From: Clostridiales bacterium
GTDB lineage: Bacteria > Bacillota > Clostridia > Saccharofermentanales > Saccharofermentanaceae
DNA: 22,331 nt
NCBI GenBank assembly: GCA_003543635.1
Contig: DNAE01000080.1
Location: forward strand, 1-22,331
Direction of reading: 5' to 3'
Of this stretch, positions 2,533 through 22,006 are shown piece by piece. The position numbers and the translations under genes were made by a program. The notes beneath the pieces are model-generated. The model saw only the letters and a list, made by a program, of their open reading frames with translations, made no database searches and was not told the origin of the DNA. The stretch's first letter is position 1, and each line of letters opens with the position of its first letter.

Positions 2533-3414
2533 CTAGTTAACGTTCGCCGTAGCCGAACTTGCTATTATCTGGTCACCGTATCTTAATTCCACCTCGTAGG
2601 ATCCCGCCGGGAAATCCCCGCCGCCTTGGGACTCGAAATCAAACATGGCGGAAACATCACCGTTCAACGTGACTTCCCTTGTATCAACGACGTCTCCGTC
2701 CTTCAGAAGGTCAGCTTCAAAGGTCATGCTCATGGGTCTGTTGAAATAGAATACAGCCTGGAGAACGGATACTGACGTAAATAACGTATTGGAAGCGGGA
2801 TTGCCCGTGAGGTAGTCATACCATACGGAATCCACGTAGACCGACTCAACGAACGCTTCGTTTATGTTGATGGGATTACCCTCTTCGTCCAGTACGCAGA
2901 AAGAGGAATAGCCGTCGAAGAATGCCTTCTCCAACTCTTTCATATCCTCGATCTTCCAGTTGCGCTCGTCATCCCTCTTAAGTGTGAAGCTCAGGGATCT
3001 GTCGGATGCCTCTCCTGACCTTATATAGTCTTCGATCTCCTCCGTCGTGCCCACGAGAAGTCCGTCCGAAGATACGGTATAGACATCCCGGAATACGACT
3101 ATGGCAGTAGCCTTAGTCCTCTTGTCGTTCAATTTGATGCTGTCGATCTCGTAGGAATAATCCGAGAACACGTCAAGGGCAATCTCCTTCTGCTCATCCG
3201 TAAGGGCAGAGATGTAACCTTCATCCACATTGTTTTCTTCCAGAAACGACACGGGATCCGATACGAACGAGTCCATCTGAGCCGTTACCTCATCCGTCAC
3301 CTTCTCCTTAACTACCTTGCGAAGATAGTCCGAACACCCCGAAGACATTATCGATACGGCTAATACGAGGGTCGCCGCAACTGATCTCTTGAAGATATCC
3401 GTTTTTCTTATCAT
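2533..3414 (-). CDS. Putative lipoprotein A, module-sharing family, 293 aa
   Basis: Unknown function; predicted membrane-anchored lipoprotein on the outer face of the cell. The N-terminus MIRKTDIFKR is basic, followed by a hydrophobic stretch and a lipobox-like MSSGC with the acylated Cys at residue 27. Residues 28-165 form a charged helical or mixed region (DEVTAQMDSF, LTDEQKEIALDVF). The C-terminal part (about 193-293) has VDSVWYDYLTG, then beta-strand-like segments, and ends FPAGSYEVELRYGDQIIASS. This ending parallels the endings of the two neighbouring lipoproteins, so I treat it as a divergent copy of the same module. A GGAGG lies eight bases before ATG 3414. It is separated from lipoprotein B by a strong terminator and is followed by the methyltransferase gene, so it belongs to a different transcript. 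Confidence 0.8.
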   Translation of the reverse strand: MIRKTDIFKRSVAATLVLAVSIMSSGCSDYLRKVVKEKVTDEVTAQMDSFVSDPVSFLEENNVDEGYISALTDEQKEIALDVFSDYSYEIDSIKLNDKRTKATAIVVFRDVYTVSSDGLLVGTTEEIEDYIRSGEASDRSLSFTLKRDDERNWKIEDMKELEKAFFDGYSSFCVLDEEGNPININEAFVESVYVDSVWYDYLTGNPASNTLFTSVSVLQAVFYFNRPMSMTFEADLLKDGDVVDTREVTLNGDVSAMFDFESQGGGDFPAGSYEVELRYGDQIIASSATANVN

Positions 3415-3444
3415 TTACCGTTCCTCCGTTCATATACAACGGTA

Positions 3445-3450
3445 ATTATA
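3445..3450 (-). promoter_or_regulatory. Possible -10 box of lipoprotein A transcript
   Basis: TATAAT on the minus strand, 30 bases before the start codon at 3414. The hexamer 17 bases further upstream is only TGGTTT, inside the end of the terminator. The promoter is therefore weak or needs an activator, or the gene depends on read-through from the lipoprotein B operon. Confidence 0.35.
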
Positions 3451-3464
3451 TTATTTTCACGAAC

Positions 3465-3499
3465 AAAAAACCACCGCCCCGGATGAACCGGAGCGGCGG
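3465..3499 (-). terminator. Rho-independent terminator of the lipoprotein C-B operon
   Basis: On the minus strand a 12-base-pair GC-rich stem (3488-3499 with 3471-3482, two G-U pairs, loop TTCAT) is followed by TTTTTTG. It lies 30 bases after the stop of lipoprotein B. Confidence 0.9.
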
Positions 3500-3528
3500 A
3501 ATGCTTAGCAATTACAAGAAAGCTGTCA

Positions 3529-4419
3529 TCAATCCATTGTATTTTCTACTACACAGCTGTTTTCTGCAATAACGTTACCATTGAGGTCGTAGAAAACGAT
3601 GCGGTACGTATCTGCAGGCATATACCACCAGCTGGAATCATAGTTGGGAAGATCGCTTGCATAGAAGTATGCCTCGATGTAGGCACCGGAATCGGTCTTA
3701 TCGGGGCTTGTGTAAACAAGGTTAGTACCGCCGTTGTTATATACTTCATAGTAGAACTCCCAAGTTATGTCGTAGCTCTGGCCTTCAGCTGTGGGTATGA
3801 TATCGAGCTCGATATCGGAAGTATCAGTGTAATGGCCCTCGTCATCATCCCACCACCATTCAGTGTGATCCACCAGGGATACAAGAGAAGATGAGAAGGG
3901 GAAATCGACGTCTGCGAGTTCCTGATAGAAGTCCTCTGCAAAATCATCGGGATTCGTGATGACCCACTCGTCCTTCTTGTTGAGGGAGAACTCAAGGGTG
4001 ATCTCCATCTCGATCTTGTCCTCTGAATCGTCGAGAAGGTCTTCAAACTCATCCACATCCTCGGGCTCCTCATCAAGGGCTGCCTCATAATCGGGAAGTG
4101 AGATGGTGTAAGTAACCTTACCCTTCTTATCCTTTGTCTTACACTCGGGCTTACCTGCCTCGAATGTGGCCCTGGAAATGATGGCATCAACGGGCTCATT
4201 CTCAGCGGCATAAGCGGAGAGCGCCTCATCAGCATCGTCCTCGTCATCGCAAAGGTCGATCATGTCCTCGATCCCCCTCTCGAGAGCGGCCTCAAGGAAC
4301 TCGTCGCCGACCTTGATGCAATTCTCTCCGGCCTTGTCGAAGAGAGAGCATCCTGCTGCACTTGCAACTACTGAGAGTGCAAGGAGAGCGGACATTGTCA
4401 TCTTAACTGTCTTTTTCAT
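3529..4419 (-). CDS. Putative lipoprotein B, module-sharing family, 296 aa
   Basis: Unknown function; predicted lipoprotein. MKKTVKMTMS plus a hydrophobic stretch leads to a VASAAGC lipobox with Cys24. Residues 25-175 are very acidic and helical (DKAGENCIKVGDEFLEAALE), ending in KKDEWVITNPDDF, the pattern of the NTF2-like/DUF4878-type domains found in many Firmicute lipoproteins. Residues about 187-296 form the shared module: TEWWWDDDEGHYTDTSDIEL, a FYYEVYNNGG strand, a YASDLPNYDSSWW segment, and MPADTYRIVFYDLNGNVIA near the end. Start ATG 4419 has AAGGAG seven bases upstream. It lies 26 bases downstream of lipoprotein C, so the two are cotranscribed; the terminator follows. Confidence 0.85.
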   Translation of the reverse strand: MKKTVKMTMSALLALSVVASAAGCSLFDKAGENCIKVGDEFLEAALERGIEDMIDLCDDEDDADEALSAYAAENEPVDAIISRATFEAGKPECKTKDKKGKVTYTISLPDYEAALDEEPEDVDEFEDLLDDSEDKIEMEITLEFSLNKKDEWVITNPDDFAEDFYQELADVDFPFSSSLVSLVDHTEWWWDDDEGHYTDTSDIELDIIPTAEGQSYDITWEFYYEVYNNGGTNLVYTSPDKTDSGAYIEAYFYASDLPNYDSSWWYMPADTYRIVFYDLNGNVIAENSCVVENTMD

Positions 4420-4445
4420 AACATAACTCCTTTTAAATTAATTAA

Positions 4446-5849
4446 TTATTCAACATTTATTGTTGCAGCCATGAGCATCGTAGAATGGGAAGCATCATAA
4501 ATGAGAAGCAGGTAGGAACCCGCAGGAGAAGGTGCAGCGAGGTCGTAATCGATGTCATAGTAAGCAGCATTAGAATATACGGTGGGAGCGATGGTGTTAG
4601 AGAAATCAGCGGTGGTTCCGATATCATCGAACATTCCGTCTGCACTGTAGTAGTACTCGAAGTAAATGGTGTCGGTCAAAGAAGGATCTACCTCAATGGA
4701 GTAAGCAATAGTCTCGACACTCGTATTATATCCGATGGCACCGTAGGAATCGACGATGGACCAGGATCCGCTGGAGTAATCCCACCAACCTGCGGAAAGA
4801 GAACCGTCTTCCTTTCTGAGGATGTTATCCACGAAGGTCTGATCGAAGTAGACCGTGCTGTCATTATCGTCTGTTTCAACGATGTCCATATCACCGGATA
4901 AGATAACATCATCGGGATCGGATACGGGATCGGATGCGGCGGGAACTTCTGTGGCAGCAGCCGTCTCTACGGCAGTTACGGTAACGGTAGCCGTATCGGA
5001 AGCAAGCTCATTACCGTTCTCATCGTAGAATGTGATCTTATAAGAACCTGCAGGGAGGCACCAGTTATCGTCAAGGACCGCACCCTCGTCAGAACCGTAG
5101 ATACCCCAATTCTCTCCGCTCTCACTTGTGTAGACAAGCTCACCATTGTACTCAACGGTATAGTAAATACCGGAATAGTCAACGGTATAGTCGTTGAAGT
5201 TCAGGTCAAGCTCGATGGATGAAGTATTCGTATAATTACCCTCATCATCTTCAGCCCACCACCACTCGGTACCGGAGATGGCACCGGCAAGGTCAACGGG
5301 GAACTCATACGTCTCGAAATAGAAATCGTAGACATCAGCAAGATCGTCTGTGTTGTTTACAAGCCACTCCTCGTCAACAAGCTCGAAGTCAGCCTTGAAC
5401 TCGTAATCCTTTGTGGCATCGGAGCTTTCGATGGCATCGATGAAAGTCTCGGGATCCACCATGACTTCGTCATCCTCCATGAGAGCCTCATAGTCAACAA
5501 GAGTAAAGACGATGGTAACCTCACCCTCGCCGTCCTTTGTGGATGCTTCAAGGGACTCCTCGTCGATCTCGTATGTCATCGTACCGAGGATGGCATTTAC
5601 GATGTCCTCGTCATAATCTGTAAAGAAGAGATCTCCGCCAAGCGTCGTATCAATGGCTTCAGCCGTATCATCGTCGAGATCATTGGAAAGATCCTTGATT
5701 GCTTTAGCGTCAGCATCGCATACTGCCTTTGCATATTCGTCAGCTGCTTCCATAACCTGCTCGCCCGCCTTATCGGCACAGGAAGCGAGGCTGAGAGCAA
5801 CGGAAGAAGCAACAACTGCTGATACAAGCTTCTTAGTTACGTTTTTCAT
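4446..5849 (-). CDS. Putative lipoprotein C with two copies of the shared module, 467 aa
   Basis: Unknown function; first gene of the lipoprotein operon. A signal of MKNVTKKLVSAVVASSVALS leads to the lipobox LASC (Cys24). Residues 25-185 resemble the N-terminal half of lipoprotein B (DKAGEQVMEAADEYAKAV, then EEWLVNNTDDLADVYDFY). Module 1 (about 194-292) reads TEWWWAEDDEGNYTNTSSIEL, then VEYNGELVYTS and CLPAGSYKITFYDENGNELA. An Ala/Thr/Pro/Asp linker (292-330) leads to module 2 (about 354-467) with AGWWDYSSGSW, a YFEYYYSADG strand and a SPAGSYLLLIYDAS ending. AAGGAG precedes ATG 5849. The protein is strongly acidic and has few Arg or Lys after the signal, as expected for an extracytoplasmic protein. 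It is transcribed divergently from a two-component system, which may control it. Confidence 0.85.
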   Translation of the reverse strand: MKNVTKKLVSAVVASSVALSLASCADKAGEQVMEAADEYAKAVCDADAKAIKDLSNDLDDDTAEAIDTTLGGDLFFTDYDEDIVNAILGTMTYEIDEESLEASTKDGEGEVTIVFTLVDYEALMEDDEVMVDPETFIDAIESSDATKDYEFKADFELVDEEWLVNNTDDLADVYDFYFETYEFPVDLAGAISGTEWWWAEDDEGNYTNTSSIELDLNFNDYTVDYSGIYYTVEYNGELVYTSESGENWGIYGSDEGAVLDDNWCLPAGSYKITFYDENGNELASDTATVTVTAVETAAATEVPAASDPVSDPDDVILSGDMDIVETDDNDSTVYFDQTFVDNILRKEDGSLSAGWWDYSSGSWSIVDSYGAIGYNTSVETIAYSIEVDPSLTDTIYFEYYYSADGMFDDIGTTADFSNTIAPTVYSNAAYYDIDYDLAAPSPAGSYLLLIYDASHSTMLMAATINVE

Positions 5850-6706: not shown

Positions 6707-8502
6707 TACGAAGCAGCAACAGTTCTCTCCTTCGAAGAACAGTTGTACTCGTATTAGGCGCTCTTGCAGCCTCTGTAGCCTTCTCTACCCTTGCTTTCGT
6801 CATTGCGGGAAGAAATGCCGCCTTTAACGAAGAGGTCAACAACATCTTCGACCAGACAGGCAAAGCCGCGGTGCTGGTGGAGGAATTCGGAAGGTCCGAT
6901 TCCGAGCAGTTATCGTTTTTCCTCGAGAACATCTCCGAGATAACGGGTACCCGTTTCCGTCTGACGAAGACAAACGGAGATGTGATCTCCCCCCTTTTCT
7001 CCCTGGATGAATCCGACCTTTACTACACGGAAAAGGCCAAGGAAGTCCTGGTCTACGATCCCGAAGAGAAATACAGTCTCAAAATTATCGAAGAAGACGG
7101 TCCCATGCATAATGTGATGCTCACCAGATTCAACATCACCCTGGATGACGGTGACTTCTGCCTTCTCTCCATATCCGAGATCGACGAGATGAGCGACGTC
7201 ATATCCCAGTACGTTAACATCCTCCTCCTCTCCACCCTGGCTGCCGCCCTCACCATGATCGTTCCCGTCGTGCTGGTGGTTACGAGGATCGTAAGGCCCA
7301 TACAGGAGATCAATGAGATCGCAAAGGATTACGGAAAAGGAAACTACGAGCTTCGTGCCGACGAGGATTACTCCGGCGAGGTCGGAGAGCTTGCCACCTC
7401 CTTCAACACCATGGCGGATAAGCTCTCAAAATCCATCAACGACCTTACCCAGGAGAGAAACAGGCTCGAAGATATCGTCAATGTCAGCACCGAGGGCATC
7501 GTTCTTTTCGATGAGAACGGTAACATCACCGTCACCAACGATACCATAAAGACCCTTTTCTCCAGGGTTCCCAAGAAGAACCTGTTCACCGAGAAGCTCC
7601 AGCTCATCCCCTTCGACGAAGTCTGGACGAACGTGGACGAATGTATAGCCGAGAACGAGACAAAGGATTTCCTCATTGAAGGTCCCGACTATGCTTACCA
7701 TGTGACCATCCTCCCCAAAACGGATCCCGACGACCCCGACAAGTGTTCCGGCGCCACGGGATTCGTAAGGGATATAACGGAGGAATCGAAGCTCGAGAGG
7801 ACAAGGAAGGACTATGTTGCCAACATATCCCATGAATTGCGTACCCCTCTGCAGACCCTCCGGGGACTTATCGAGCCCCTGGCAGACGGCATGGTAAAGA
7901 ACGAGGAGGACCGCCAGAGATATTACAACATCATCCTCAATGAGACCCTCCGGCTTTCCAGGCTCATCGACGACATGTTGGAGCTTTCCAAGCTCCAGTC
8001 CAGGACCCTGGCCTTCAAGACATATCCCTTCGATATCAATAACCTTCTCTCCGAATTCGAGACGAAGATGCTCCCCGTCATGAAGGAGGCAAAGATAAAG
8101 TTCAAGGTCATGTTCAATACGGGTAAGCTCCCCACCGTGATCGGAAACCCCGACAGAGTCGAGCAGATCCTGGTTATCCTGCTGGACAATGCCAAGAAGT
8201 ATACCCCCGCCGAAGGATCCATAACGATCCATTCCGAGTATAACGAGATGATAAACAAGGTCATGATCTCCGTAAGCGATACGGGGCAAGGCATCCACGA
8301 ATACGATATCAATCACATCTTCGACCGTTTCTTCAAGGCCGACCGTGCCAGGGGCAAGAAGGGCACCGGTCTGGGCCTTGCCATCGCCAAGGAGCTCCTC
8401 ACCTACATGGGCGAGGACATCACCGTGGAGAGCGAATACGGCAAGGGCACGACCTTCACCTTCACCTTGAAGCGCGCCGAGACGAATGCCACCTGGTACT
8501 GA
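6703..8502 (+). CDS. Membrane sensor histidine kinase (HAMP-PAS-HisKA-HATPase), 599 aa
   Basis: Transmembrane sensor that autophosphorylates and passes phosphate to the regulator encoded just before it. Transmembrane segment 1 (about 13-36) and segment 2 (about 171-195) flank an extracytoplasmic sensor of about 135 residues. A HAMP domain follows (RIVRPIQEINEIA to about 250), then a PAS domain (about 255-365, with TEGIVLFDENGNI). The HisKA domain has NISHELRTPL with phospho-accepting His377. The ATPase has the N box LLDNAKKY (Asn496), DTGQG, the F box FDRFFKAD and GTGLGLA. This is the PhoR/WalK-like architecture. The stimulus is unknown; the adjacent lipoprotein operon hints at an envelope role. 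Confidence 0.93.
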   Translation: MIRSSNSSLLRRTVVLVLGALAASVAFSTLAFVIAGRNAAFNEEVNNIFDQTGKAAVLVEEFGRSDSEQLSFFLENISEITGTRFRLTKTNGDVISPLFSLDESDLYYTEKAKEVLVYDPEEKYSLKIIEEDGPMHNVMLTRFNITLDDGDFCLLSISEIDEMSDVISQYVNILLLSTLAAALTMIVPVVLVVTRIVRPIQEINEIAKDYGKGNYELRADEDYSGEVGELATSFNTMADKLSKSINDLTQERNRLEDIVNVSTEGIVLFDENGNITVTNDTIKTLFSRVPKKNLFTEKLQLIPFDEVWTNVDECIAENETKDFLIEGPDYAYHVTILPKTDPDDPDKCSGATGFVRDITEESKLERTRKDYVANISHELRTPLQTLRGLIEPLADGMVKNEEDRQRYYNIILNETLRLSRLIDDMLELSKLQSRTLAFKTYPFDINNLLSEFETKMLPVMKEAKIKFKVMFNTGKLPTVIGNPDRVEQILVILLDNAKKYTPAEGSITIHSEYNEMINKVMISVSDTGQGIHEYDINHIFDRFFKADRARGKKGTGLGLAIAKELLTYMGEDITVESEYGKGTTFTFTLKRAETNATWY

Positions 8503-8503
8503 T

Positions 8504-9205
8504 ATGGCGGAAACGGAAAGCGTAAGGCTCAACAAGTATATTGCGTCCTCGGGTTTCTGTTCCAGGCGCGAGGCGGATTCCTATATCGAGAACGGAAAGG
8601 TCACCGTAAACGGAGTTAAGGCGGATCTCGGGACCCGGGTCTTCCCCGGCGATTCCGTGGCCGTTGAGGGGCGTGAGGTCGTTCCCAAGGACGACAAGAT
8701 CTATCTGGCACTCCATAAGCCCCTGGGCATAACCTGCACCACGGATACAAGGGATCCGGATAATATAATAGACTATATAGGATATAAGGAGCGGATCTTC
8801 CCCATCGGGAGACTGGATAAGAATTCCTCGGGACTCATCCTCCTTACCAACGACGGTGATTCAGTCAATAAACTCCTTCGAGCCGAGTTCGGTCACGAGA
8901 AGGAATACGAGGTCAGGACCGACCGCAAGATCGGCGCGGACTTCAAGGAGAAAATGGAGAAAGGCATCCCCCTGGACGGTAAGATCACTCTCCCCTGCAC
9001 CGTTACGGTCACGGGCAACCACACCTTCAGGATAATCCTCAAGCAGGGCCTTAACAGGCAGATAAGACGTATGTGCGAATATCTGGGCTACCGGGTGGTA
9101 AAGCTGCGCAGGATAAGGTTCAGGAATATAAAGCTCGACGGGATCAAATACGGGGAATACCGACTGCTCACCAAAAGGGAGATCGATGATCTCCTTAACC
9201 CTTGA
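8504..9205 (+). CDS. rluF: RluF/RluB-type 23S rRNA pseudouridine synthase, 233 aa
   Basis: Isomerises a uridine in 23S rRNA. An N-terminal S4 RNA-binding domain (VRLNKYIASSGFCSRREADSY) is followed by the RsuA-type catalytic domain. The latter has LHKPLGITCTT, NIIDYIGYKERIFPIGRLDK (catalytic Asp105) and LKQGLNRQIRRM. The NIIDYIGYKERIFPIGRLDK stretch is closest to RluF as I know it. Start: ATG 8504 begins one base after the kinase stop; ATG 8486, overlapping the kinase gene, is the alternative. Neither has a strong SD, so translation is probably coupled to the kinase. The gene overlaps the end of the convergent GH2 gene by 11 bases and shows no terminator. Confidence 0.88.
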   Translation: MAETESVRLNKYIASSGFCSRREADSYIENGKVTVNGVKADLGTRVFPGDSVAVEGREVVPKDDKIYLALHKPLGITCTTDTRDPDNIIDYIGYKERIFPIGRLDKNSSGLILLTNDGDSVNKLLRAEFGHEKEYEVRTDRKIGADFKEKMEKGIPLDGKITLPCTVTVTGNHTFRIILKQGLNRQIRRMCEYLGYRVVKLRRIRFRNIKLDGIKYGEYRLLTKREIDDLLNP

Positions 9206-12200
9206 TGAGCTTAAGCTCGAAGGTCTCCTTATAAGCCACGTTCTTCCTGAGGGGAAGTGAAGATACATTATTTCCCGTTCTCTCGATCTCCTTTGAACAG
9301 AAATCAATGAAAAGCTCGCAGGAATCGTTTCTCATGAGAAGCTCCTCGTGAAGATACTCGTTCATCTGCTCAGGGGTGAACGGAAGGACCGTGAAATCAA
9401 ACCTGTCGTATCCCTGACGATCGGGAAGTCTCGTAAACCTCAGGATATCACCCTTGCCGGAGTAAAGCTGCATGGTCTTCGTATCAGCGTGGGAGCTGTT
9501 CTCGGAAGGTCTTGCATAGGGATGGTATATCTTGTCGGCGCCGGCGGTGAAAAGGCCGAGTCTCGTGGCTAGCTTTCTGTCGTAGTAGGACTCTCCGGGG
9601 CCCCTTCCGTACCAGGTGCAGAGCATATCATCCTTAACGATGGGTACACGGAGTCCGTAACGGACCATATCGTACCTGGGTGTAAAGGACAGGGTGATCC
9701 TCAAGGTATCCGCCGCGGGGATCTCATAGGCCAGGATCACCTCATCCTTCATGGCGAAGGACTTATATCTCGAGATAAAGGAGAACACGTTGTTCTTGAC
9801 TCCGTAGGAGGCACCCGTGAACTTAAGGGATTTCTGTATCTCCTCGTAGTCGCTCTCCTTGGAGAATATGGTCTTGGCCAGCACGAAGCTCCTGTCTGTT
9901 CTGTCGATATTGGAAGGACACCTGTAGAAGCTGGGCAGGAAGCCGCCCATGAGGAAGTCGCTCTCCCCTATCTTGATCTTTCCGACGGTACCCTTTGCCC
10001 TGTCGAAGACGATCTTCATATTATCGTTGCCCACCGTGATATTTCCGGGCAAGGCATATACTTCATATTCGTTGATGAGCTCGGTGACGTTGATCTCCGG
10101 CTCCGCGGGAGCAGCGGCCACAAGGGATGTATCCTCCATCACCTCCGTAAGGCCGTCATTTGACACTTCACCCTCGGGAAGAGCCTTTACTTCAACGCCC
10201 GAACCCAGCATGGGATCATTAGAAATAGCGACGGGATTACCGCACTCCTCGGACAGAACATCCTGATAGAAGGCGATCTCAAAGCCCTCGTTGGCATAAT
10301 ATGTATCATTTGCAAGCTTAAGGCTTATATCAAATACGATCTCATGGGACAGGAGATTCATATACATCTCGATGAGCTCGGGCTTTCCGTTTGCCCAACC
10401 GTCGCTAAGATATCTGTTAGGATCTATGGGGAACTTGAGGGTCCTGGTTCCGTAGGGTTCTATCTCGGGGATGTTACCCTTGCCGCTCATGACGGGATTA
10501 CCGCCGAGGAGGATCCTCCACTCCAGCACAAGATCCGATGTGTACGCAAAGGGATGAAGATTGCGCAGGGTCAGGTGCATGGGATCGTCCTGGGACGCGA
10601 AGATGCTTATGTCGCTGCACTGCTTCCTGATATCCAGGTAAATGGGATGGGGCTCCCTGTCTGCACTGACGATACCCTGACCTATACTGCTGTTCTCCTT
10701 CTGCTTACCTCCCACGAGATCCGCATGGTGGATCCACTTATATTCTGCAGTATCGTCGGGGAACCTGGTCCTGCCGGGTACGGTATCGAAGATATTATTG
10801 CCTGTCTTGTTCTTGTCAAAAAGATTCTTTCTGTCAAGGCAGAGGTCCTGCCAGGGTCCGAAGACAAGTCCGGCATCGCCGGGCATTGGAGACATATCCG
10901 TGACCTTGAGTTCCGTATCCTTTGAAACATACCAGGGTCTCGTATCATCGATGGTCTTGAGTTCGGCCTTGATCTTACCGCCCTTCGAGGCATCGAATCC
11001 GTAGGATCCCATTCCCCACATGATCACCGATGGATGCACCATGGCACTTTCCACGTAATCGTGCATAAGGTTCATGTCGCTTTCCGCGATAACATAGATA
11101 CCGTACTGGTCACAAAGGTTAAGGAAATCGTCGCTCAAGGGGAATCCCTGACCGATGACTCCGTTGATCCCGCAACGCTTCATCAGCATGATGTCATGCC
11201 TGTATGTCTCCATGGGCACCGTAATGCCGCTCATGGGGTCGAACTCGAAGTATCTTACGAGCTTCAAGGTCTCAGGTCTGTCGTTGATATGGAACTTGTC
11301 CATCATTATCTCGGTGGAACGGAATCCGAACCTTCTCTTCTTGGCACAGATGACGCCTCCCCGGGAATCGGTCAGCTCCAATACCAGGTCGTACTGGACG
11401 GGAGTTGCATCGGACCACTGGAGTACATCCAGGGCGACAAACTCCGCAGCATCCCTTATGGTCTCATGGGAATCCACGGTGCCTCCGGGAGCCGACTGCA
11501 TATTGAGCTTGGCGTAGGGCATCTTATAGGGATCGTATTCGGATCTCGCCTCCACCACGGATACATTTATCTTATATGGCATGACGTAGTCCGTATGGTT
11601 CCTGATATTGAAATCAGCCTTAACAAGGTAATCTCCCCTGGAGACCTTGGCGAGGCTCTGCTTCTCGGAAGCGGTATCCACCGTCAGCTGATTAACGTAA
11701 GCCGCGGGGACGTTGGAAAGCCTGATATGAAGGTTTGATATCTCGAGCAAAGGCTCGGCGACCACGAATACGGGTCTGAATATTCCGGAGAAACCATAGT
11801 TCATGATCTCCCTCTTGATCTTTCCGTTCCTGTCCCTGTCCCATCTGTTAACAAGGATAGCCAGCTGATTGACGCCGGGCTTTGCGGAATTGGAGATCAG
11901 AAGTCTCTTATGGGTCATTACGGAATGGGATTCCGTCTGAAGCTGTCCGTTGAGATATACATTGAAGCTTCCGCATATGCCGGATACTTCAAGATAAAGG
12001 GCCCTGTCGATATCCTCCTCGGAGAATACGATGCTGGTCCTGTATATACCGACCTCGTCGGAATCGGAATCCGTGGAATGGAGGAGCAGCTTATCGCTGA
12101 TGGACTCCTCTCCCCTCTTTGCTATCTTATCCAGTTCCTCGGGATAGTTATAGAGGAGATTTTGGGGCAGACCGTATCCTTCCGTCTGCCAAGTGGAAGG

Positions 12201-12416: not shown

Positions 12417-12444
12417 TATGACCTTCCGTTTTTCATAATTATAT

Positions 12445-12473
12445 ATTTTATATTAGCAGATATTTTCCGTCAA
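12445..12473 (-). promoter_or_regulatory. Promoter of the GH2-like gene
   Basis: On the minus strand TTGACG (12468-12473), a 17-base spacer and TAAAAT (12445-12450), each one mismatch from consensus. A TATAAT closer to the gene has no matching -35. The region between this promoter and the hppA terminator holds nothing else I recognise. Confidence 0.65.
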
Positions 12474-12532: not shown

Positions 12533-12562
12533 AAAGGGGGCCGTCAAATGAAGACGGCCCCC
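12533..12562 (-). terminator. Terminator hairpin downstream of hppA
   Basis: A perfect 10-base-pair stem GGGGGCCGTC/GACGGCCCCC (12553-12562 with 12536-12545) and a 7-base loop lie 22 bases after the hppA stop. The following T run is short (TTT), so termination may be incomplete or assisted. Confidence 0.75.
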
Positions 12563-17680: not shown

Positions 17681-20600
17681 CTAGATATCCTTTCTCCTTT
17701 GCTTCATGTAACAGATAAGTACCGCTACGGAGGATACGGATACCAGTATCCCCGCTATAAGGTTTCCTGACCCCCAGGACTCTCCCGTCCCGGGAAGCTC
17801 CTTAGATACTCCCGATACCACGGGCTCGGGGCGTGTAATTGTCACGGTCTGATCCGAGTCATTAATATCCGTGTGGTGCCCCACCTGCTTTCCGTCCCTG
17901 TACATATATTCGAAGCACACGATATCCTTTCCCCGGAGATCCTTCACGTCAACGTCGAAGAACACGGAGATCTGCCCGCTCTGATCCTCGGCGGTGAATA
18001 TCACCTGCGTCCTGATATCATTGCCTTCAGAGTCCTTAAGGACCTCCCCCGTCTCCTTATCCCTGAGTTCGCCTTGAAGTTCGTATTCCATGCCGACGAT
18101 AAGTCCCTTATAGGAGACCACGTCCTCCAATGTCACGATCCCTTCGGGAAGGAGTTCGGTCTTCCCCGTTTCCTTCTCCCCCAGTGTGGTCCCGATCACG
18201 GTACCTTCGTTGAGGAAAAGTCCCCTCACGCCGTCTATCTGGGTATAAGTATCGTTTCCGACGATTATCTCAGAGAGCTCCGCCGTTACGGAGAATGCAT
18301 ACCAATTGGGATCTGTCTCGTATCCCTCCGGGGCGATCTCCTCTCTGACTATATAGTTCTGTCTGGGGATATCCTCCAGGCGGTAGCATCCGTCGCCGTC
18401 CTCATCCTCCACGGATCCGTAGAACACATCGATCCCCTCACTATAGGTACAGTCGGCATTCACATCGATATAGACACTGAACACCGCCCCCGGGAGCAGG
18501 ATATCCGTATCCTTTCCGTCGCACTTCACGATCGTAAGGGCTCCCGTGGCATCATTGGCAACACCCGTGAAGCCCGGATCTTCTATATCCACGGTCTCAC
18601 CGTCCGTCCTGATGCTGAAGGGATACGTGTTATTGCTCCTGTTAAAGCCGGGAGGCGCCACCGTCTCCTCCACTATGTAGTCTCCCCAGGGCAGATCCCT
18701 GAGATAGTACTCTCCGACGTTCTCCTCCCTCATGGTGCCCACCACGTTGCCCTGCAGGTCGAAAACGGTAAACACCGCACCCGACAGCCTGTTATCGGGA
18801 TAGAGCTCGTCTATCTTGGTGATGTGGACGGTTCCCCTGCAATAGTTTCCGATGGTAACGTTAAGATACTCCATGTTTAAGGTATCAACATCCGGGGTTA
18901 TGGTGACCGGAGTGACATTCCCGCCTTCTGCCGCCGAGAAGCCCTCGGGGGATACCGTTTCCAGGATGAGATAATCACCGGCCCGCAGTCCCCCGTCCGT
19001 CACATATACGGGATCGCCGTTATCGTCCGTGGTCTCCACGAAGGATACGGAGGATCTGACATCGATATCGGGATCTAAGACACCATCGGAATCCACGTCC
19101 TCGTAAAGCTCGAATACGGCTCCCGAGAGAAGGTGGTCCGGGTCGTCCCCGTCGCACTTACGGATCCTGATCAGGGCCTTATAGGGCTGATCGGCAAAGG
19201 ACACCTCGTAGAGCATGCCCTTTTCCACGTCAACGGAGATGCACTCCTCGGAAAGAAGATAGTTTTCCGGGGCCTCCGCTTCCGCGATCAGGTAACTTCC
19301 CGCACCGAGCCCTTCGAAAACAACAACGCCGTCGTTGTCGTCGTCACTGATCCTGGTGAACTCAGATCTCTCTTCCCCGTCAACGATCCCGTTTCCGTTT
19401 ATATCCGCATATATGTCAAAGACGGCACCGGGGACCAGCTCCCCGTTCTCACCGTCCACCTTGGAGACGCTTACGGAGGCCTTGATGATATTAATGGCGG
19501 TTATCTCCGTACTGTAAGACGGAGAGGCGGATGTCAGATGTACCCTCTTTATTCCGTTTCCCGCCGTCCCTCCGACGAACCGCACTTCGTTATACTCGGG
19601 GTACTGTTCCTCAATGTCGTACCATCCGTAGGGAAGTCCCGTTATATCCACCGTTCCGTCCTCACCGGTAACATATGTACCCATGAATACCCTTACGGCG
19701 GAGGCGGAATCGAATCTGACCTCATTTCCCCTGTAGTAAAGATCGAAGGCGATGCCTGATACAACTCCCTCCTCGGATACCTTACGGATCTTGAGATCAG
19801 CTTGTTTCCTTATATTCTCGCAGCTTATCGTGACCACCTGATCCTCGGCGTCTTCCACGCTGATGTCCCTGTAAAAGTATGTTCCGTCCGAGGAAAGGGT
19901 GAAGCCCTCAGGAACGTCGTAGGTGTAGGAAGCATCCCCGGTCTCACCGGTCACGGGATCGATATAGACCGAATCGGGGATATATTCCACGATCCTGTAG
20001 TCCCCCGCGGGAAGTCTTTCAATGGTCTCGACCTCATTTTCGCCCAGATCCCAGAGGACGGGACAGCCTTCTCCCCGTTCTCCTGTGGTGGAGGTCTCTC
20101 CCCTTGCGACAAGGGAACCTCCCGATGTACGCAGTTCAAAGGAGATATCTGCACTATCGCCGTCGGTACCGGTGACCTTTAATACCCTAAGGGAATTCGT
20201 AAGTTCCTCGTTTACCACCTGAAGATCCCTGTCTCCGTCGATGACGAAGGATGTCTCGTAGGAATTGTCCCCTATCCTTGTCCATCCCGAGAGGTTTAAG
20301 GATACATATGTGATGGAAGATCCGTCCTCCAGGTCCATGCTCTCCTCCTCCCAGGTCTCCGTCAGGACATATTGACCGAAGGGCAGTCCGGTAACATCGA
20401 AGTCCCAGGAAACGGATCCGTCAGACGAAGTATCGCCCGTAGCCACAAGTCGGTCCGGAGAGCTTATCTTCCCGTCGGAATCCGAATCCAGGTAGAGTTT
20501 AAACGTGACGGTCCCGGGATCGAAGGTATCTCCCTCGGGGATGTCTTTACTTACCTCTACACCGCCCTGTTGCCTGATGTTCTCGGCCCTAAGGGTGATA

Positions 20601-22006
20601 TCCTGTCCGCCGTCGATCAGGATATCCGTATAAAATCCGCCCTCGGTCTTCGTCCACCCCTCCGGGGTATCGTATGTATAAGGGATCTTGTACCCGTCCC
20701 TGAGTGTCAGATATGTCTCGGGGACCTGTTCCGTTACCCTGTAATTTCCGGGAACAAGTTCCAATACCCTGTCTCCGTCTTCGAACACAAGATCTCCGTT
20801 CCCGTCGGTGGTCCCCTCAAAGGATCCGTTGCCATCCAGGCTTTCCACCGTAAAGCTTATGCCGGATACGACATCGCCGTCGGAGGACGCGGTCTTCTGC
20901 AGCGAGAAGGTACCCATGCTCTTCTCAAAGGCCACCCAGGAGGTTATTCCGTAAAATCCCCCGCCGCTTACCGCCACGGCCTGGAGATTATCCTCATCAT
21001 CTCCGTCTCCGTATATCCCGTCGTCGTAGATCCTGATATCTCCCCGTCCCCTGAGGTTAGACCGAAGTCTCATGGTTATATTATCGGGATCCGCCGAAGG
21101 GTCGAACCATATCTCAATGGTATCCCCGGATATGCTGTAACTGACCAGTCCCGGATCGAGCTCCTGATCCGTTCCCGCTCCCACGAAGAAATCGATATCC
21201 GTGAAGTCGTAGTCGGAAATATCCTCATTCAGGTCCTCCAGCTTCACATATCCGTTTGATCCCACCTCCCACACGGGAGCCGAGGATCTGTACATGGAGG
21301 AGAAGGAAGGTCTCGGGCGCCCGTAGGAGCTGCCGCGTCCCGTTGCGGGATCGTAGGTATTATCCGAGAAGACCCGGTTCTCGATCTTGTGGTACCAGTA
21401 GTCACACCTTAAATGGAACTCATGCTCCTCCTCATCCTGGTAATCTGGATCTCCGAATATGGTGAGGGCGACATTGGCGGCGCCGGTCCCATGGGTACCG
21501 CCGTAGTAGTCCCTCTCCCCCACTATGACCTCCCAGATAAGTATCTGGGTGGCAACGGCATAGTACAGGTTATCCTCAGGATCCTCGGGATCTCCCGTCC
21601 CGAGTTCCCGGGCACTTCCTTCGCCGTCGCAGTAGTATCCTCCGCCGTATCCGTAAAAGAGGATCCTCTGGAGTGTTTCCTTCTCCTCCTCGGCGGTCAT
21701 CTGCCCCGTTCCCGAGAGGAGAGCGTCCGCATCCTTGAGATCAAGGGTGTCATTGTCGCTCCTGTGGCGTCCGGGCTCCAGGCAGTAACCGATGTTATCT
21801 TCCCCGTCTATGTCGAAAAAATACATCATGTCACCCTCGTGGTGTTCCCAGCCCCCGTTATAGGTAACGGTCTCATGCCAGTGGGGCAGTTCGTACCCGA
21901 TGACCCGGGAATCCGATGCGGAAACATCACGCCGGATCGTCAAGGGCAGGAGATTTGCCGCCACGAGAACGCAGGCCGTTAATATCTTCGGTATCTTGAT
22001 CTTCAT
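17681..22006 (-). CDS. LPXTG adhesin: thioester domain, eight CnaB modules, T-Q ester-bond domain, 1441 aa
   Basis: Sortase-anchored surface protein predicted to bind covalently to a target. Signal peptide 1-30 (VSA/SD cleavage). The thioester domain (about 35-330) has Cys75 in GYCLEPG and Gln154 in ATQILIWE, the pair that forms the reactive internal thioester. Eight CnaB/SpaA-like modules follow, at about 367-478, 481-600, 603-733, 736-841, 842-943, 944-1056, 1057-1151 and 1155-1268. Most have an N-terminal Lys (such as VSKVDG, ITKIDE), a central Glu (LILETVSPEGF, IVEETVAPPGF) and a C-terminal Asn for isopeptide bonds. A VaFE/T-Q ester-bond domain (1269-1390) starts GTTLGEKE and ends DINDSDQTVTI (Gln1386). 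LPGTG (1404-1408), a hydrophobic helix and KQRRKDI complete the anchor. Several modules carry EF-hand-like Asp loops. The start ATG 22006 has an AAGGGGGTGA-like SD that overlaps the stop of the upstream gene. Confidence 0.92.
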   Translation of the reverse strand: MKIKIPKILTACVLVAANLLPLTIRRDVSASDSRVIGYELPHWHETVTYNGGWEHHEGDMMYFFDIDGEDNIGYCLEPGRHRSDNDTLDLKDADALLSGTGQMTAEEEKETLQRILFYGYGGGYYCDGEGSARELGTGDPEDPEDNLYYAVATQILIWEVIVGERDYYGGTHGTGAANVALTIFGDPDYQDEEEHEFHLRCDYWYHKIENRVFSDNTYDPATGRGSSYGRPRPSFSSMYRSSAPVWEVGSNGYVKLEDLNEDISDYDFTDIDFFVGAGTDQELDPGLVSYSISGDTIEIWFDPSADPDNITMRLRSNLRGRGDIRIYDDGIYGDGDDEDNLQAVAVSGGGFYGITSWVAFEKSMGTFSLQKTASSDGDVVSGISFTVESLDGNGSFEGTTDGNGDLVFEDGDRVLELVPGNYRVTEQVPETYLTLRDGYKIPYTYDTPEGWTKTEGGFYTDILIDGGQDITLRAENIRQQGGVEVSKDIPEGDTFDPGTVTFKLYLDSDSDGKISSPDRLVATGDTSSDGSVSWDFDVTGLPFGQYVLTETWEEESMDLEDGSSITYVSLNLSGWTRIGDNSYETSFVIDGDRDLQVVNEELTNSLRVLKVTGTDGDSADISFELRTSGGSLVARGETSTTGERGEGCPVLWDLGENEVETIERLPAGDYRIVEYIPDSVYIDPVTGETGDASYTYDVPEGFTLSSDGTYFYRDISVEDAEDQVVTISCENIRKQADLKIRKVSEEGVVSGIAFDLYYRGNEVRFDSASAVRVFMGTYVTGEDGTVDITGLPYGWYDIEEQYPEYNEVRFVGGTAGNGIKRVHLTSASPSYSTEITAINIIKASVSVSKVDGENGELVPGAVFDIYADINGNGIVDGEERSEFTRISDDDNDGVVVFEGLGAGSYLIAEAEAPENYLLSEECISVDVEKGMLYEVSFADQPYKALIRIRKCDGDDPDHLLSGAVFELYEDVDSDGVLDPDIDVRSSVSFVETTDDNGDPVYVTDGGLRAGDYLILETVSPEGFSAAEGGNVTPVTITPDVDTLNMEYLNVTIGNYCRGTVHITKIDELYPDNRLSGAVFTVFDLQGNVVGTMREENVGEYYLRDLPWGDYIVEETVAPPGFNRSNNTYPFSIRTDGETVDIEDPGFTGVANDATGALTIVKCDGKDTDILLPGAVFSVYIDVNADCTYSEGIDVFYGSVEDEDGDGCYRLEDIPRQNYIVREEIAPEGYETDPNWYAFSVTAELSEIIVGNDTYTQIDGVRGLFLNEGTVIGTTLGEKETGKTELLPEGIVTLEDVVSYKGLIVGMEYELQGELRDKETGEVLKDSEGNDIRTQVIFTAEDQSGQISVFFDVDVKDLRGKDIVCFEYMYRDGKQVGHHTDINDSDQTVTITRPEPVVSGVSKELPGTGESWGSGNLIAGILVSVSSVAVLICYMKQRRKDI

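Follow-up and report, generated by a model that had tools for sequence, protein, structure and literature searches.

Can a β-galactosidase that has lost its catalytic apparatus still be kept by selection, and for what? The question is raised by a 22,331-nucleotide contig (DNAE01000080.1, assembly GCA_003543635.1) from a Clostridiales bacterium of the Saccharofermentanaceae, termed the window here in its entirety, one minus-strand frame of which encodes a full-length LacZ-type protein of glycoside hydrolase family 2 (GH2; Table 1). A sequence-only reading had taken this continuous 1073-residue frame, with its GH2 flanking domains, for a member of a GH2 pseudoenzyme clade. Descent from LacZ, retention of the multidomain scaffold, loss of both catalytic glutamates and purifying selection are all observed. 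The gene belongs to the core set of a single family of rumen Clostridia, and we consider, with a probability of about 0.65, that its product serves as a non-catalytic cytosolic scaffold or regulator.

Open reading frames and Pfam matches establish the frame and its flanking domains: Bgal_small_N (2e-34), the GH2 barrel (3.4e-20), LacZ_4 and the GH2 sugar-binding domain all exceed their cut-offs, the best stretch of the barrel match covering residues 370-448 only, and the GH2 immunoglobulin-like domain lies under its own cut-off. No NCBIfam equivalog cut-off is reached, the top model, LacZ-type Bga2A, scoring 305 bits against the 999 needed. Architecture and fold are those of LacZ, and the start codon is conserved (M1 in 99% of 86 aligned members).

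The catalytic residues were followed through 162 members of the clade (P0001-P0120 and P0168-P0209) among the matches listed by protein search (best 120 per listing). The acid/base residue of LacZ, E461, is Y472 in the window protein and Glu in none of the 162, its column holding Tyr (114), Leu (15), Asp (9), Phe (8) and others. The column of the nucleophile E537 is a gap in every member, as are those of Y503, H540 and H418; that of W568 is invariably Gly (G520 in the window protein), and that of D201 is never Asp (M205). The Mg ligand E416 is replaced by N449, leaving the window protein with neither the Mg ligands E416 and H418 nor the Na/sugar ligand D201. At R356 all 162 have Tyr (Y389), and H391 is His in 36 and Gly in the window protein. 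The motifs proposed from the sequence, RYFEFDP, QGFPLS, AESDMNLMHD and GSYGF, thus hold their places against E. coli LacZ, and alignment, the check suggested at the time, recovers the catalytic Glu pair at neither column. A motif scan flagged P0175 and P0034; the matches, at residues 863 and 829, are in the C-terminal part, off the active site. From these substitutions and gaps we infer that the window protein would be unable to hydrolyse β-galactosides.

The barrel itself appears to have been cut. A predicted model was compared by DSSP with that of an intact control, P0228, modelled identically; about 62 residues are missing by this comparison, corresponding to α6-β7-α7, the unit that bears the nucleophile. 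In the model this unit is absent from segment 488-515, where β6 has shrunk to DMSPMP, and the β3-α3 loop that carries Mg ligands has one residue for the control's 19. Strands β6 and β7 are both absent from the model, which is not a complete (β/α)8 barrel. The prediction supports an incomplete barrel with α6-β7-α7 excised, the Mg-ligand loop cut away and a new insertion after β8. The EYAHAMGN segment said earlier to be missing is indeed missing, within a loss larger than had been noted; the motif substitutions stand as well, although substitution would not be the whole change, the nucleophile-strand segment having probably been excised.

Is this a gene in decay? The ratio of nonsynonymous to synonymous substitution (dN/dS) is 0.041-0.097 in the 14 closest pairs, with 0.016-0.072 in the barrel and 0.036-0.098 elsewhere; pairs including the window protein were left out, their synonymous sites being saturated. 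The gene is present in 113 of the 115 genomes of the window's family and in all five genera, at 31-82% identity, usually as one copy and with a long open frame in most. Decay, or an alignment artefact masking an active enzyme, could draw on the nine members with Asp at the acid/base column and on one early alignment that set an insertion Glu under E537 (121 of 148 rows). That Glu is gone in broader alignments and in the models, which remove the nucleophile strand itself, and with the low dN/dS and long frames this makes such an explanation extremely improbable. The window clade is a pseudoenzyme clade: homologous to an enzyme, without its catalytic residues, and retained by selection. In this the sequence-only reading, which had argued for selection on a non-catalytic role, has held up.

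The clade is also well delimited. It is monophyletic on non-barrel columns (10 rows, 100/100), and none of the 73 other genomes of the order has a match at 1e-60. A wider sample of 391 genomes of the class gave 14 matches at that threshold, 11 of them from the window's genus (>1400 bits), the other three, at 209-214 bits, matching part of the model with scores such as ordinary LacZ proteins give. Most records are rumen or gut metagenome-assembled genomes named Clostridiales (also one Saccharofermentans sp. and Ruminococcaceae bacterium R-25, the latter holding P0104).

If the protein does not cut sugar, it might still hold it. A lectin-like sensor or carrier that still binds sugar in the old pocket, comparable to YKL-39 among the relatives of chitinases, would accord with the high conservation of segments 73-84, 828-839, 935-946 and 965-976, which we take to be interdomain segments that border the active site in LacZ. 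The 17 pocket positions tell otherwise: their mean entropy is 1.77, against 1.76 for the whole protein and 1.58 for the barrel, and of 10000 sets drawn at random from the barrel, 2106 equal or exceed them in variability, whereas in 20 LacZ-type outgroup rows pocket entropy is 0.65 versus 1.96. Low dN/dS together with a pocket whose conservation does not exceed that of the protein as a whole indicates that selection still maintains the fold but no longer catalysis; the state of the pocket argues against simple retained sugar binding. Sugar-binding pseudoglycosidases are known (PMC7828330), but D201, E416, H418, N460, E461, Y503, H540 and W568 are all gone from the window protein, and we consider this role unlikely. 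Of the sugar-binding, regulatory and structural roles first suggested, the first, if exerted in the old pocket, is therefore the least favoured, and a scaffold or regulator would fit best.

The outgroup is not perfect. P0212, one of the 20 rows taken as active, has Gln at the acid/base place. Among the other GH2 matches (n=114), 80 pass a strict motif scan and 34 fail, the aligned ones among the failures keeping both Glu except for P0212 and P0276. P0276 is a single LacZ-type protein with neither catalytic Glu.

Conservation in the window clade is concentrated at β8 and its insertion, where G520, W522, D524, C526, H563 and D566 are each found in all 162 members, Q580 in 161, and H590 and C600 in 160. 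An enzyme with new chemistry, built from Cys526, His563 and Asp566 with His590 and Cys600, would explain this invariance and the rarity of C526 (5%) and H563 (0%) in the 20 outgroups. D566, however, is present in all of these and H590 in 55%, and a new acid pair under strict conservation is lacking: nine acidic barrel positions are kept by at least 90% of members, and all but D379 (93%) occur in the outgroups too. We regard a new catalytic activity as quite improbable. Instead, the non-catalytic scaffold or regulator that we favour may act in the cytosol, with the remodelled β8 side (G520, W522, D524, C526, H563, D566) as the surface to which a partner or ligand binds, and would make no use of the old sugar pocket.

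Several observations weigh against this. The cut barrel is a prediction, with the post-β8 insertion at 62-81 in the predicted local distance difference test (pLDDT). The pocket is under some constraint, since new residues have become fixed at three of its 17 positions (Y89 in 85, Y389 and G520 in 86 of 86 members). Nor is the β8 site new throughout: the outgroups conserve D524 and D566 as well, and 75% of them have W522. The gene is split into two frames on one contig in G011 and in G107, and G021, a 90% complete genome of the same genus, lacks it, with the response regulator (RR), histidine kinase (HK) and rsuA genes intact and then another gene. This clean absence, likely a true loss, means that the gene is not strictly essential. 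In G065 (78% complete) the gene was not matched, and neither was a close rsuA.

Would the neighbourhood supply a partner? By tblastn of the window genes, rsuA accompanies the gene in 13 of 25 loci, from four genera (g1, g17, g18, g20); in 11 loci of g1 the gene lies elsewhere, away from rsuA, and in the fifth genus contig L053 ends and L096 keeps HK-RR adjoining the gene. Vertical descent followed by relocations within g1 would account for this pattern. At L110 (G021:C5), 9632-9645, the pseudoenzyme gene is missing exactly at the position it has in relatives. An HppA-like gene is upstream in the window and in 8 of the 25 loci, and a co-directional GH3-like gene is directly upstream in 5 of 24 (L057-L061; gaps of 107-176 bp). 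An operon with the H+-pyrophosphatase or GH3 gene was considered and rejected, the remaining loci differing and no fixed partner being found. The GH3-like neighbour of other genera, or the 801-aa GH2 of the window's genome, which is shorter and keeps its catalytic motifs, could in principle be an active glycosidase that the protein stabilizes or regulates as an inactive subunit. The neighbour varies by genus, however, the GH3 of the window is a divergent secreted lipoprotein, and upstream gaps of 84-580 bp in all 24 loci suggest a separate transcript; such a subunit we judge very unlikely.

A second degenerate LacZ clade exists in f3, a sister family of the same order (P0121-P0130, L045, L073-L080 and others). 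It resembles the window clade in having LacZ domains without catalytic motifs, and some of its rows share G-x-x-x-G-x-W at β8 while others do not. Judged on primary sequence, it differs in the residues around the site, and its neighbour is different too, a pnp-like gene adjoining it in seven of eight loci and near it in the eighth (pnp and rpsO are the names we presume for genes at these loci). On the tree it is separate (11 rows, 100/99), nested among the intact LacZs of its own family, with L081 as sister (100/99) and then L083 (100/100). A single origin of the two clades was rejected by a quick approximately unbiased (AU) test on a 39-row tree that included near intact f3 LacZs (p 1.7e-6); on an earlier 45-row tree without these it was not (p 0.369). 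Both trees have long branches, and the 39-row test is therefore given more weight, short of certainty. We put forward only tentatively, as an idea with the odds against it, that two sister families of the order independently converted LacZ to core proteins devoid of catalysis and that in the window's family excision of the nucleophile unit was joined by a new invariant site (G520, W522, D524, C526, H563, D566) on the opened side, for a new, widely required cytosolic job, perhaps with a new ligand site or chemistry. The second clade makes repeated conversion of LacZ a testable question.

Table 1. Features of the pseudoenzyme gene and its surroundings in the window
Feature	Position	Strand	Basis or remark
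LacZ-type GH2 pseudoenzyme, 1073 aa	9195..12416	-	N-terminal sugar-binding domain, GH2 domain, remodelled barrel, LacZ_4, Bgal_small_N
Remodelled barrel (predicted), residues 384-600	10617..11267	-	DSSP of model vs P0228
RYFEFDP (388-394), at LacZ RHEHHP	11235..11255	-	alignment with E. coli LacZ and intact relatives
QGFPLS (423-428), at LacZ SHYPN	11133..11150	-	alignment
AESDMNLMHD (444-453), at LacZ DEANIETHG	11058..11087	-	alignment and model vs control
GSYGF (470-474), at LacZ GNESG	10995..11009	-	alignment
Residues 488-515, between α4 and β8	10872..10955	-	28 residues vs 90 in control
GLVFGPWQDLC (516-526), at LacZ β8 GGFVWDWVDQ	10839..10871	-	alignment
Residues 527-591, after β8	10644..10838	-	~24 residues longer than control
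Likely ribosome-binding site GGAAGG	12422..12427	-	5 bases 5' of ATG; sequence read
Promoter-like TTGACG-17-TAAAAT	12445..12473	-	10/12 match; scan of region
GC-rich hairpin and short T run	12536..12562	-	by eye; between H+-pyrophosphatase and pseudoenzyme genes
RsuA-type pseudouridine synthase	8486..9205	+	convergent, conserved neighbour; 3' end overlaps pseudoenzyme gene

At 9195-9205, rsuA and the pseudoenzyme gene share 11 bases at their 3' ends. Promoter-like sites are no commoner in the region than expected by chance (5 seen, 4.7 expected), so it is position alone that argues for the one listed, and the hairpin is absent from the terminator-scan output. Elsewhere in the window, 17681-22006 (minus strand) encodes a 1441-aa surface protein with a thioester domain, six SpaA stretches, a T-Q ester-bond domain, and a C-terminal LPGTG-like motif with hydrophobic tail, which looks like a thioester adhesin. 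Three adjoining lipoprotein-like genes, at least two of them mutually related, lie at 2533-5849 (minus strand) beside a two-component system; the product of 2533-3414, the one tested, has no Pfam match. There was no PADLOC defence-system match, and no RNA elements or tRNAs were found within the window.

LacZ is among the best-studied enzymes, and here a lineage has kept its 1000-residue scaffold family-wide while apparently dropping the nucleophile unit. The clade illustrates how much of its barrel a TIM-barrel enzyme can lose and still be maintained by selection, and it offers a natural experiment on the uses of a LacZ scaffold that no longer catalyses. Some members are annotated at source as β-galactosidase/β-glucuronidase or GH2 TIM barrel, so a protein that very likely has no cutting activity is included whenever rumen lactases or GH2 enzymes are counted by domain alone.

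Among the papers listed by a literature search limited to open PMC, none concerned a bacterial GH2 pseudoenzyme. Compared with LacZ-type GH2 β-galactosidases (E. coli LacZ, Thermotoga LacZ 6sd0, Arthrobacter 32cB), the window protein lacks the catalytic Glu pair and the Mg/Na ligands and, by the model, lacks α6-β7-α7 and has a new insertion past β8. Glycan- or protein-binding pseudoglycosidases (GH18 YKL-39, GH1-like klotho and GH33-like CyRPA; PMC7828330) likewise retain a glycosidase fold after catalysis was lost; they belong to other GH families and hosts, whereas the window protein is bacterial, probably cytosolic, encoded by a family-wide core gene and predicted to have a cut barrel. The GH28 pseudoenzymes of beetles (PMC6549527) are similarly inactive glycosidase homologues, and have a biological effect, but form an insect-gut digestive multigene family with active paralogues.
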